A DNA stretch of 64,000 nt from Acetobacter orleanensis (lineage in GTDB: Bacteria; Pseudomonadota; Alphaproteobacteria; Acetobacterales; Acetobacteraceae), in assembly GCF_001581005.1 (NCBI RefSeq), contig NZ_LHZV01000067.1, forward strand, positions 186,001-250,000, written 5' to 3'. Of this stretch, positions 37,926 to 43,247 are shown one piece after another. The notes beneath the pieces are model-generated. The model searched no databases and was not told the DNA's origin. It saw only the letters and a program-made list of their open reading frames with translations. Each line of letters begins with the position of its first letter. The first letter of the stretch is position 1. Position numbers and translations under genes: made by a program.

Positions 37926-38381
37926 TCAACTCAGGCTGGCCTTCACCACCGCATTGGCGCGGCCCATATCAAGCCCGGCCCCGAATTTGGCTTTCAGCGC
38001 AGCCATGACCTTGCCCATGTCCTTCATGGTTTCCGCCCCCGTGGCGGCCACGGCGTCTTTCACAGCGGCTTCCAGTGCGGCATCATCCATTTCCGGCGGC
38101 AGGTAACCACGGATTACCTCGATTTCCGCTTCTTCCTTTTCAGCCAGTTCCGGGCGAGCGGCATCCCGATAGAGGGTGACCGAATCGGTGCGGGTCTTGA
38201 TCATGCCGCGCAGCGCGGACAGACCCTCTTCCTCACTCAGCCCTTCACCGCCCTTGGCGCGGCCCGCAATCTCAACATCCTTGAGTTTGGCCGTTATCAT
38301 GCGGATCGTGCCCACACGCGCACTTTCTCCGGCTTTCATTGCCGTCTTGAGATCAGCCATCAGGCGTTCACGCAGGGACAT
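37926..38381 (-). CDS. GatB/YqeY domain protein
   Basis: A 151-residue YqeY-type protein (LRERLMADLKTAMKAGESARV at the start, VIRGYLPPEMDDAALEAAVKD, MGKVMAALKAKFGAGLDMGRAN at the end). The domain is shared with GatB of the tRNA amidotransferase, but the free-standing protein's exact role is unclear. AGGAG precedes the ATG at 38381; a GTG two codons earlier is the alternative. It is divergent from carA. Confidence 0.93.
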   Translation of the reverse strand: MSLRERLMADLKTAMKAGESARVGTIRMITAKLKDVEIAGRAKGGEGLSEEEGLSALRGMIKTRTDSVTLYRDAARPELAEKEEAEIEVIRGYLPPEMDDAALEAAVKDAVAATGAETMKDMGKVMAALKAKFGAGLDMGRANAVVKASLS

Positions 38382-38449: not shown

Positions 38450-38466
38450 TGGGAAGAAATTTCCCA
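38450..38466. promoter_or_regulatory. Palindrome 1 between yqeY-like gene and carA
   Basis: TGGGAAGAAATTTCCCA: arms TGGGAA and TTCCCA are a perfect inverted repeat around five bases. It is the exact reverse complement of palindrome 2, 44 bases (about four helical turns) away centre to centre. Looks like a paired operator. Confidence 0.7.
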
Positions 38467-38493
38467 CCCCACACCAAAACCAGCATAGCGCAG

Positions 38494-38510
38494 TGGGAAA
38501 TTTCTTCCCA
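38494..38510. promoter_or_regulatory. Palindrome 2 between yqeY-like gene and carA
   Basis: TGGGAAATTTCTTCCCA, the exact reverse complement of palindrome 1 with the same TGGGAA/TTCCCA arms. It ends 51 bases before the carA start, overlapping the likely carA promoter. Candidate target of CarA's N-terminal helix-turn-helix. Confidence 0.7.
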
Positions 38511-38561
38511 CCCGTTCCGCAGACTGCTAGAAACCCTACACGGGAGGCACAGTCTTACCTT

Positions 38562-39986
38562 ATGCCTATTTCAATCGATACCATCATTGCCCGACTTGGC
38601 GGGCCGGACGCAACTGCCCGCCTGACCGGCGTTGGCACAGAAGCCATCCGCAAATGGCGGCAGGCTCAGGCCATTCCGTCCCGCCACTGGCCCGTCATAG
38701 CCCGGGCCACAGGTCTTTCGCTGACAGATCTGGACCCCGCAAGCCCCACATCTCCTGACCCATCCCCTCTTGCCCCATCCTCCCCGGTGCCGGGAGGCAG
38801 CATAACAGGAATACCCATGCCCGACGCCCGCCCGGACGGCGCAACCGCCGCCCTTGTTCTTGCAGACGGAAGCATTCTGTGGGGGAAAGGCTTTGGTGCC
38901 TTCACGCAGACGCCTGCTCTTGGCGAAATCTGCTTTTCCACCGGCATGACCGGCTATCAGGAAACGCTGACGGACCCCTCCTTTGCAGGCCAGATCATCA
39001 CCTTCACCTTCCCACACATCGGGAATGTCGGCACCACGCCCGAAGATGATGAAGCCCAGCGCAGCGCAGCCCTCGGCCTTGTTACCAAGGAAGACCTGAC
39101 GGAGCCGGCCAACTGGCGCGCCACGGAAAGTCTGGATGCATGGCTGAAAGCGCAGGGTATTCCGGGCATTGCGGGCGTTGATACGCGCTCCCTCACCCTG
39201 AAAATCCGCGACCACGGCGCACAGACGGCGGCCCTGTATTTCCCGCAAAACGGGCAGTTTGATCTGGCCGCCCTGCTGGACGCCACCCGTGCATGGCCGG
39301 GGCTGGAAGGGATGGATCTGGCAAAGGCCGTCACCTGCAAAGCCCCTTACACATGGAGCGAGAGCGTGTGGGAATGGCCGAAAACCACCCGCCCTGCCCC
39401 GGAAAACCGCCGCAGGGTTGTGGCGGTGGATTACGGCGCGAAACGCAATATCCTCCGCTGTCTGGTTGCGGCAGGCTGTGACGTAACAGTTGTGCCCGCC
39501 ACGGCGACAGCGGACGAGATTCTCGCCCTCAAGCCAGCCGGTGTGTTCCTGTCCAACGGCCCCGGAGACCCGGCAGCCACGGCAGAGTACGCCGTGCCCG
39601 CCATTCAGGGTGTGCTGAACGCTGGCCTGCCGCTGTTTGGCATCTGCCTTGGCCACCAGCTTCTGGCCCTTGCTCTGGGGGGCAGAACCTACAAGCTGGC
39701 CCGTGGCCATCGCGGCGCGAACCAGCCGGTGAAGGATCTGGCTACAGGCCGCGTGGAAATCACCAGCCAGAACCACGGTTTTGCCGTGGATGCGGACAGT
39801 CTTCCGGCGGACGCGCACGTTACGCATGTCAGCCTGTTTGATGGCTCCAATGAAGGTCTGGCGTCTGATCGCTTCCCAGCCTTTTCCGTGCAGTATCACC
39901 CGGAAGCCAGCCCCGGCCCGTCTGACAGCTTCTATCTTTTTGAACGGTTTGTCGCGCTGATTGATGCGCACGGCAGCAAGGACTAA
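38562..39986 (+). CDS. carA: Carbamoyl-phosphate synthase small chain with N-terminal HTH-like domain
   Basis: 474 residues, ~80 longer than ordinary CarA. Residues 1-57 look like a small Cro/YdaS-type helix-turn-helix (IIARLGGPDATARL, GTEAIRKWRQ, IPSRHWPVIARATGL). Residues ~58-84 are a Pro/Ser linker. CarA proper starts ~95: the N-terminal domain and a class-I glutaminase with Cys362 in GICLGHQL and the His/Glu pair in QYHPEAS. It supplies ammonia to CarB for carbamoyl phosphate, needed for pyrimidines and arginine. GGGAGG lies 14 bases before the ATG, a long spacing. An internal ATG at 38817 with AGGA upstream could make ordinary-length CarA. I recall such domains on some CarA proteins (perhaps the carph-isopro domain); I cannot check the name. 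Confidence 0.93.
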   Translation: MPISIDTIIARLGGPDATARLTGVGTEAIRKWRQAQAIPSRHWPVIARATGLSLTDLDPASPTSPDPSPLAPSSPVPGGSITGIPMPDARPDGATAALVLADGSILWGKGFGAFTQTPALGEICFSTGMTGYQETLTDPSFAGQIITFTFPHIGNVGTTPEDDEAQRSAALGLVTKEDLTEPANWRATESLDAWLKAQGIPGIAGVDTRSLTLKIRDHGAQTAALYFPQNGQFDLAALLDATRAWPGLEGMDLAKAVTCKAPYTWSESVWEWPKTTRPAPENRRRVVAVDYGAKRNILRCLVAAGCDVTVVPATATADEILALKPAGVFLSNGPGDPAATAEYAVPAIQGVLNAGLPLFGICLGHQLLALALGGRTYKLARGHRGANQPVKDLATGRVEITSQNHGFAVDADSLPADAHVTHVSLFDGSNEGLASDRFPAFSVQYHPEASPGPSDSFYLFERFVALIDAHGSKD

Positions 39987-39992
39987 CGCATC

Positions 39993-42900
39993 ATGCCAAA
40001 ACGGACAGATATCCGCTCCATCCTGATTATTGGCGCTGGTCCCATTGTCATCGGGCAGGCCTGCGAGTTCGACTATTCCGGCGCACAAGCCTGCAAGGCT
40101 CTGCGGGAAGAAGGCTACCGGGTCATTCTGGTGAACTCCAACCCCGCCACCATTATGACGGACCCCGGCCTTGCGGACGCCACCTATGTGGAGCCCATTA
40201 CGCCGGATTTTGTTGAGCGCATCATTCTCAAGGAAAAGCCCGACGCCATTCTGCCCACCATGGGCGGCCAGACGGCTCTCAATACTGCCATGGCGCTGGA
40301 TGCCTCCGGCTTCCTGCAAAAGCATGGCGTGGAACTGATTGGCGCGAAGGCCGACGTGATTGACCGCGCGGAAGACCGTCAGAAATTCCGGGAAGCCATG
40401 GATGCCATCGGCATTGAAAGCCCCCGCAGCTTCATTGCTCACACGATGGAAGAAGCGCGGGAAGCGTTCAAGAAAATCGGCTTCCCCACCATCATCCGCC
40501 CCTCCTTCACCATGGGTGGCTCCGGCGGCGGCATTGCCTATAACCGGGAAGAGTTTGAGCAGATTGTGGCCTCCGGTCTGGATGCCTCCCCCACCACGGA
40601 AGTGCTGATTGAAGAATCTCTGCTCGGGTGGAAAGAGTATGAAATGGAAGTTGTGCGCGATACGGCGGACAACTGCATTATCGTCTGCTCCATTGAAAAT
40701 ATTGACCCGATGGGTGTGCATACCGGGGACTCCATCACAGTCGCCCCCTCCCTGACGCTGACGGACAAAGAATTCCAGCGGATGCGGGACGCCTCCATTG
40801 CCTGCCTGCGCGCCATTGGCGTGGAAACGGGGGGCTCGAACGTGCAGTTCGGCGTGAACCCGGCAGACGGGCGCATGGTGGTGATTGAAATGAACCCCCG
40901 CGTGTCCCGCTCCTCTGCGCTGGCGTCCAAGGCGACCGGCTTCCCGATTGCCAAGATCGCCGCCAAGCTGGCTGTGGGCTACACGCTGGATGAGCTGAAG
41001 AACGACATTACCGGATCCACCCCGGCGTCCTTCGAGCCGACCATTGACTATGTGGTTGTCAAAATTCCGCGCTTTACGTTTGAAAAATTCCCCGGCGCGC
41101 CTGCCCTGCTCTCCACCTCCATGAAGTCCGTTGGCGAGGCCATGGCCATTGGTCGCTCCTTTACGGAAGCTCTGCAAAAAGGCCTGCGCTCCATGGAAAC
41201 CGGCCTGCATGGGCTGGACCCGGTGGAAGTGCCCGGTGACGGCGGGGAAGATGCCTTCCGCGCAGCCCTCTCCCAGCCGCGCCCCGAACGGATTCTGATG
41301 GCCGCTCAGGCACTCCGTTCTGGTCTGTCCGTTGAGGATGTCAACGAGGCCTGCCGGTTTGAACCGTGGTTCCTGCGGGAGTTGGAAAAAATTGTTCACG
41401 CGGAACGCGCCATCCAGAACCATGGCCTGCCGCGTGACGCCCAAGGCCTGCGCCGCCTGAAAGCCATGGGCTTTTCTGACATCCAGCTTGCCCGTCTGTC
41501 TGGCACGCAGGAAGAGGAAGTTGCCGCCCTGCGCCATCAGGTAGGCGTCAATGCCGTCTATAAGCGCATTGATACCTGCGCGGGTGAGTTCGCCTCCAGC
41601 ACGCCCTATATGTATTCCACCTATGAAGGGGTGTTTGCGCCACCAGCCTGTGAATCCAACCCGACCGACCGCGAGAAGATCATCATTCTCGGCGGTGGCC
41701 CTAACCGGATCGGTCAGGGCATCGAGTTCGATTACTGCTGTGTTCACGCCGCCTACGCACTGCGGGAAGCCGGGTTTGAGACCATTATGGTCAACTGCAA
41801 CCCGGAGACGGTCTCCACGGATTATGACACCTCCGACCGCCTGTATTTTGAGCCGCTGACGGCGGAAGATGTCGTCGCGCTGATCCGCAAGGAGCAGCAG
41901 AACGGCACTGTCAAAGGCTGCATCGTGCAGTACGGCGGCCAGACGCCGCTTAAGCTATCCCGCGCGCTGGAAAATGCCGGTATCCCGCTTCTGGGCACCC
42001 CGGCGGACGCCATTGACCGCGCGGAAGACCGTGAACGCTTTCAGGCGCTGCTGCACAAGCTCGGCCTGCGCCAGCCGGATAATGGCATTGCACGCTCCCC
42101 GGCGGAAGCTGAGGATATTGCGGAACGTATCGGCTACCCGGTTGTGGTGCGTCCGTCCTATGTTCTGGGCGGTCGGGCCATGGAAATCGTGTATGACCGC
42201 GCCGGTCTCCAGCGCTACATGCGCGGAGCACTTCAGCTTGCCGGGCATGACATCGCCTCCGGCCCGGTGCTGATTGACCATTACCTGAACGAAGCCATCG
42301 AGGCGGACGTGGACTGCATTGCAGACGGCACGGATGTTTATGTGGCCGGGGTAATGGAACATATTGAGGAAGCGGGCATCCATTCGGGTGACAGCGCCTG
42401 CGCTCTGCCGCCTTATACGCTCTCCCCCGCCATTGTAACGGAGCTGAAAGCCCAGACCGAAGCCATGGCGCGTGAGCTAGGCATTGTCGGGCTGATGAAC
42501 GTGCAATACGCCATCAAGGATCAGGAAATCTTCGTCCTTGAGGTCAACCCCCGTGCCTCCCGCACCGTACCGTTCGTGGCGAAGGCCACGGGTGTTCCGG
42601 TGGCCAAAATCGGCGCGCGCGTCATGGCCGGAGCCAAGCTCGCCAGCTTCAATCTGGATGACCGCGCTGTGGTGCCGCATGTCGCGGTGAAGGAAGCCGT
42701 TTTCCCCTTCAACCGCTTTGCGGAAGTGGACATCATTCTGGGGCCGGAAATGCGCTCCACGGGTGAGGTCATGGGGTTGGATACCTCTTTTGAGCGCGCC
42801 TTTGCCAAATCCCAGCTTGGCGCGGGTGTGCGCCTGCCCACGTCCGGCACGGTCTTTCTGTCCGTGCGGGAGAGTGACAAGGCGCATCTCCCCGCCCTTG

Positions 42901-43247
42901 GCCGCCAGTTGGCCAGCATGGGCCTGAAAATTCTGGCCACGCGCGGCACAGCCAAAAAGCTGCGCGATGCCGGGATTGAGGTTGATGTGGTCAACAAGGT
43001 GCTGGAAGGCCGCCCGCATTGTGTGGACGCCATCCGCTCCGGTGAAGTGCAGATGGTCATCAACACCGCCCGTGGCGCGCAGTCCGTGGCGGACAGTTTT
43101 GACATCCGCCGCTCGGCCCTCGTGCTGGGCATTCCGCACTACACCACCATGGCGGGCGCGCGCGCCGCAACCTACGCAATTGCGGCAATGCGTGAAGGAC
43201 CGCTTGAAGTTGCGCCACTTCAGTCATACTTTAGTGGATCGTTCTGA
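39993..43247 (+). CDS. carB: Carbamoyl-phosphate synthase large chain
   Basis: A 1084-residue enzyme with the duplicated ATP-grasp synthetase halves: [21 protein letters not shown] opens the first, [19 protein letters not shown] the second. Each half has the ATP-grasp glycine loop and metal-binding residues ([14 protein letters not shown]). An MGS-like allosteric domain follows at ~945-1075 ([25 protein letters not shown]). It starts six bases after carA, so the two are co-translated. Full length, no anomaly. Confidence 0.98.

Follow-up and report, generated by a model that had tools for sequence, protein, structure and literature searches.

A Cro-like N-terminal domain of CarA and a paired palindrome before carA: predicted autorepression of carAB in Acetobacteraceae

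Comparison of sequences strongly supports the view that CarA of Acetobacter orleanensis, the small subunit of carbamoyl-phosphate synthase, the enzyme that opens both pyrimidine and arginine synthesis, carries a Cro-like N-terminal domain (the head) that acts on a paired operator of its own. The most likely role of the head on this basis is that of an autorepressor, and we hold it highly probable that CarA represses carAB by binding two sites, O1 and O2, in its own promoter, there being no binding or expression data. What was computed is the head itself, its relationship to Cro, the conservation of the operator, the co-occurrence and co-loss of head and operator, the linkage of the operator to carA and its overlap with a promoter-like block. 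An earlier note, made from the letters alone, had proposed the paired operator and autoregulation by the N-terminus of CarA, a proposal that now has comparative but not experimental support in the co-occurrence of both elements in 100 of 100 loci, their joint absence elsewhere and the uniqueness of the motif in the genome. The features to which we refer are the following:

37926 to 38381, minus strand: yqeY-like gene, divergent from carA; the operator does not depend on it
38450 to 38466, no strand: putative distal operator O1, sequence TGGGAAGAAATTTCCCA
38494 to 38510, no strand: putative proximal operator O2, sequence TGGGAAATTTCTTCCCA, the exact reverse complement of O1
38505 to 38510, plus strand: inferred -35 element TTCCCA, which is the right arm of O2 (from conservation)
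38525 to 38533, plus strand: inferred extended -10 element TGCTAGAAA (conserved TGnTA)
38542 to 38547, plus strand: Shine-Dalgarno-like GGGAGG of carA (by inference)
38562 to 39986, plus strand: carA, 474 aa, carbamoyl-phosphate synthase small subunit with the N-terminal Cro-like domain
39993 to 43247, plus strand: co-directional gene directly 3' of carA, which we take from sequence recognition to be carB, the large subunit

The window, i.e. the whole stretch of 64,000 nucleotides that was analysed, contains two identical inverted 17-mers at 38450-38510, and their coordinates, exact reverse complementarity and spacing of 44 bp were confirmed as first described; the ATG of carA (38562) lies 51 bp downstream of O2. 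The 44 bp, counted from start to start, correspond to 4.2 helical turns, so that the distance itself stood but its reading as about four turns, i.e. 4.0, did not. The pattern TGGGAA-N3..7-TTCCCA has two matches in the window where 0.03 are expected, and none of 100 shuffles of the window contained two. Furthermore, in the whole 3.0 Mb genome O1 and O2 are the only exact TGGGAA-N5-TTCCCA sites, the reversed-pattern control had no match, and allowing one mismatch adds just two further, scattered sites. The genome-wide count that had been proposed as a check thus confines the exact motif to the region upstream of carA, and a genome-wide regulon of the palindrome was rejected for lack of any other exact site.

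Regarding the protein, the small-chain and GATase domains of the synthase score above their Pfam cutoffs, and the residues of the expected glutaminase site, C362, H446 and E448, are invariant in 39 of 39 sequences, therefore the enzyme core looks intact, judged by sequence. The additional N-terminal part comprises the following features:

38574 to 38735, plus strand: Cro-like helix-turn-helix, residues 5-58 (from NF046037, PDB profile matches and the AF2 model)
residues 26-35 of CarA: recognition helix of the head, TEAIRKWRQA region
38745 to 38822, plus strand: flexible linker from the head to the CarA core, residues 62-87 (pLDDT below 50)

The isolated N-terminus matches the NCBIfam carph-isopro domain NF046037 with 71.4 bits and the full CarA with 66.4 bits, the cutoff being 38, and no other protein of this genome matches it at E <= 0.001. 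The scores for Pfam P22_Cro (24.4, gathering threshold 30.2) and YdaS_toxin (23.2, threshold 30) remain below threshold, thus we call the head Cro-like and do not place it in those Pfam families. A profile built from 40 relatives matched, among PDB structures, N15 Cro (2hin, E-value 0.0034; DNA complex 6on0), XPH1 and Xfaso1 Cro (3bd1, E-value 0.016), as well as P22 Cro weakly. The AF2 model of the head is compact, with helices at residues 5-12, 15-22, 26-35, 40-50 and 54-57, and its top Foldseek matches are the Cro proteins 3bd1, 2hin and 6on0, with probability 1.00 and E-values of 0.05-0.1; in VIA-align the Cro proteins are also at or near the top, with Z of 7.8 and 6.8, a middling level. 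Middling scores are expected in both searches because the head has 60 residues. Going by these models, the head has a Cro-like fold, with a recognition helix that can be aligned to those of Cro proteins, and in the full-length model it is tied to the CarA core through the low-confidence residues 62-87. The recognition-helix region GVGTEA[IV]RKWRQ is almost invariant across the family. A plasmid search returned homology to the carA core only.

The head and the palindromes occur together. Scanning genome contigs with the head gave 345 encoding loci, and the best 80 of these belonged to Acetobacteraceae or to loosely classified Rhodospirillales or Proteobacteria MAGs. When the scan loci were joined with the earlier ones into 100 distinct upstream regions of head-bearing Acetobacteraceae carA genes, and a site was defined by at most 2 mismatches in the 12 arm positions, all 100 regions had at least one palindrome and 87 had two; the search of related carA upstream regions that the earlier note had called for was therefore favourable. 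Across 23 distinct Acetobacter rows the 17 columns of O1 are 93% conserved, O2 99% and the palindrome arms 99%, against 54% for the spacer between O1 and O2.

The family survey found the head in 277 of 299 genomes, and a sample of 200 high-quality genomes of the order had it in 198, the two exceptions being G012 and G117. A complete carA without the head was found in G012 and in one genus, g70 (G117 and G203), and the palindrome is absent there too: neither G012 nor G117 has an exact site anywhere in the genome or a good site upstream of carA. A congener of G012 (G016), likewise without the head, offers almost no upstream sequence to examine, and the other head-less genomes of the survey, where carA was not found or its start is missing, are uninformative on loss. 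In six carA regions from outside the family that lack the head, no palindrome came closer than 3 mismatches. There is one genome, G010, in which the frame of the head is broken by a stop codon while both palindromes are intact; the stop may be a fault of the assembly or a lesion acquired recently. As a separate observation, one genome (G159) holds eleven copies of the palindrome scattered over contigs, nine of them the single word TGGGAAACACCTTCCCA and two another, and these look like an unrelated repeat element.

The palindromes follow carA and not the divergent gene. yqeY is divergent from carA in 76 of the best 80 of the 345 loci. In Rhodopila it can sit 0.6-2.2 kb away from carA, with the palindromes still at carA, and no yqeY was detected within the searched stretch in Acetobacter conturbans, A. 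sicerae, an Acetobacter MAG and one further locus (L201), all four of which retain the palindromes at carA. Furthermore, in genus g70 yqeY still adjoins carA though head and palindrome are gone. Therefore yqeY was rejected as the target of the operator, because the palindromes are present at carA whether yqeY is near, far off or missing.

The distance between O1 and O2, start to start, was 38-40 bp in 47 loci, 43-44 bp in 31, 32-37 bp in 8 and 50 bp in one, the two modes being equivalent to around 3.6 and 4.2 helical turns. It had been suggested that two dimers sit on one face of the DNA, possibly with looping. Two modes and outliers from 32 to 50 bp lose the helical phase, so this geometry was rejected, and looping is without evidence. 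Regarding the arms, the substitutions at the carA operators fall on the left arm in 89 cases and on the right arm in 4, in distal and proximal sites alike, which implies that the half-sites are not equivalent.

The position of the sites argues for repression. In this carA upstream region TAGAAA begins 17 bp after TTCCCA. Of 59 loci from acetic acid bacteria, 57 have a conserved TGnTA box downstream of the proximal TTCCCA; the spacer between the two measures 17 bp in 53 loci and 18 bp in 4. Since 17 bp is the sigma-70 spacing, O2 covers the -35 slot. In the Rhodopila-type loci the proximal palindrome runs directly into TAnn (20 of 21), with an ATG within 13 nt. Both layouts put a bound protein on the core of the promoter. 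A scan of the carA upstream region with the sigma-70 consensus found no promoter match, therefore the promoter is inferred from conservation; the conserved palindromes do sit on a conserved -35/-10-like block of carA, but that they are operators of CarA overlapping its promoter is likewise an inference, made without binding or transcription-start data.

The mechanism that we propose would then be as follows. As CarA accumulates, paired N-terminal domains would bind O2 and the upstream O1; the right arm of O2 being the -35 slot, bound CarA would block RNA polymerase, and carAB would be repressed by its own product. The quantity sensed may be the level of CarA protein, or how much of it is free as opposed to bound in the CarAB complex, and pyrimidine or arginine effectors might act via CarB. 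The binding of CarA to the sites, the pairing of two heads on each palindrome, the repression and the sensed quantity are inferred only.

A class-wide search with NF046037 and its follow-up, with partner domains assigned by Pfam, found Cro-like heads, fused independently, also on HisZ, an ArgB-type amino-acid kinase, PyrB, CoaBC, PdhA, GlmU and a TorD/nitrate-reductase-delta-like protein. In one set of HisZ fusions (L231-L252, L267-L269) 23 of 24 loci have an upstream TTCAT-N5-ATGAA with at most one mismatch, 16 of them exact, the background being 0.004 per 260 bp; in L267 and L268 the palindrome is present as an exact tandem with a distance of 39 bp. No clear upstream palindrome was seen for the HisZ fusions of another family (L265, L266). 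One ArgB locus has a tandem of TTACT-N5-AGTAA, and its relative keeps the palindromes at the same positions with single mismatches (L271, L273); the PyrB fusion has a tandem of TTGCG-N5-CGCAA and the CoaBC fusion has TGTGA-N5-TCACA, and in all of these loci the palindromes are close to the start codon. The palindromes of one ArgB locus, PyrB and CoaBC outscored every one, or almost every one, of 500 shuffles, a test whose letter-diversity filter excluded the CarA motif and so left CarA unscored; unlike that of HisZ, the evidence for these three consists of single or paired loci. By the shuffle test no significant upstream palindrome pair was found for the PdhA, GlmU and TorD-like fusions, nor significant upstream palindromes for seven fusions to mitofilin-like membrane proteins, on which the head likely has a different role. 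The palindrome of CarA can be written in the same 5-N5-5 form, GGGAA-N5-TTCCC. We lean towards the interpretation that a Cro-like head together with a 5-N5-5 operator that matches it, frequently as a tandem close to the promoter, on CarA, HisZ, ArgB, PyrB and CoaBC represents a recurrent alphaproteobacterial form of self-repression, a class not yet described, with considerable room for doubt.

Autorepression by CarA has to be weighed against regulation of carAB in trans by another protein, a repressor or activator with a role like that of ArgR, PurR or PyrR, for which the palindromes would be the operators while the extension of CarA does something else. Binding data that would link CarA to the palindromes are lacking, and the uneven conservation of the half-sites fits such a regulator. 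It also counts against autorepression, as do the broken head of G010 beside intact palindromes and the sub-threshold Pfam scores of the head. Moreover, the lineages showing co-loss are few, two groups, both with reduced genomes, which could have lost a trans-acting regulator along with the extension. Nevertheless, the palindrome accompanies the extension without exception in the 100 loci and both are missing in the two extension-less groups; this regulator would serve one promoter only, given that the genome has no other exact site; and the palindrome differs from one enzyme and its Cro-like head to the next. We therefore regard a separate regulator as unlikely, and we count in favour of autorepression that the recognition helix hardly varies and neither do the operator arms.

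Slightly less likely still, though not excluded, is that the head binds O1 and O2 but activates carAB or counters another silencer. The upstream position of O1 is compatible with activation, and as a -35 hexamer TTCCCA is weak (4 of 6), a frequent trait of promoters that need activation, which agrees with the empty consensus scan; the geometry is nevertheless that of repression, both in acetic acid bacteria, where the better-conserved O2 covers the -35 slot, and in the Rhodopila type, where the proximal site abuts the -10/start region. There remains the case in which the inverted repeats act as RNA, as a hairpin, attenuator or terminator within a leader or a transcript of the region between yqeY and carA. 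Either repeat can fold into a hairpin, and a terminator-like element was called on the minus strand at 38469-38447, but compensatory changes are nearly absent (at the pair positions of 50 distinct sites, 55 changes were one-sided and 1 was two-sided), the five central bases are variable, both repeats are located upstream of the inferred -10 and Rfam gives no credible match, only a miRNA family with E 0.62, far under its gathering score. This case was rejected for the lack of covariation and of a credible Rfam match, and we give it almost no weight.

In E. coli the carAB operon is controlled by ArgR, PurR, RutR and IHF together with the trigger enzymes PepA and PyrH (PMC6245113). Thus in the same operon enzymes moonlight as regulators, but there they are separate proteins, whereas the regulator proposed for Acetobacter is built into CarA. 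With the Cro proteins of N15 (2hin, 6on0) and Xfaso1 (3bd1) the head shares the helical fold, the place of the recognition helix and, as we propose, palindromic operators and repression by covering the promoter; these are, however, free-standing repressors of 60-80 aa, and the head of CarA is fused to an enzyme via a disordered linker. PutA, BirA and NadR are trigger enzymes in which a fused DNA-binding domain regulates their own operon. Like them, CarA would be one polypeptide that serves both as a metabolic enzyme and as a sequence-specific DNA binder, and its operators, predicted in its case, would lie in its own promoter; the difference is that CarA is the glutaminase subunit of carbamoyl-phosphate synthase and its DNA reader is phage-Cro-like. 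The N-terminus of CarA is a member of NF046037 carph-isopro, which is catalogued as a domain. The open-access papers searched, which leave out most of the subscription literature, gave no account of an autoregulating CarA, nor of an operator or function for the carph-isopro domain.

The prediction of autorepression by CarA can be tested cheaply, with one protein and one DNA fragment. If it is true, a whole family would control its supply of carbamoyl phosphate by a one-protein feedback loop, compared with the multi-protein control of carAB in E. coli. Furthermore, the carph-isopro domain, whose role is unknown, would gain a likely function as an enzyme-borne autorepressor, and the combination of a head with a matching 5-N5-5 palindrome would provide a simple rule for finding more such enzymes.
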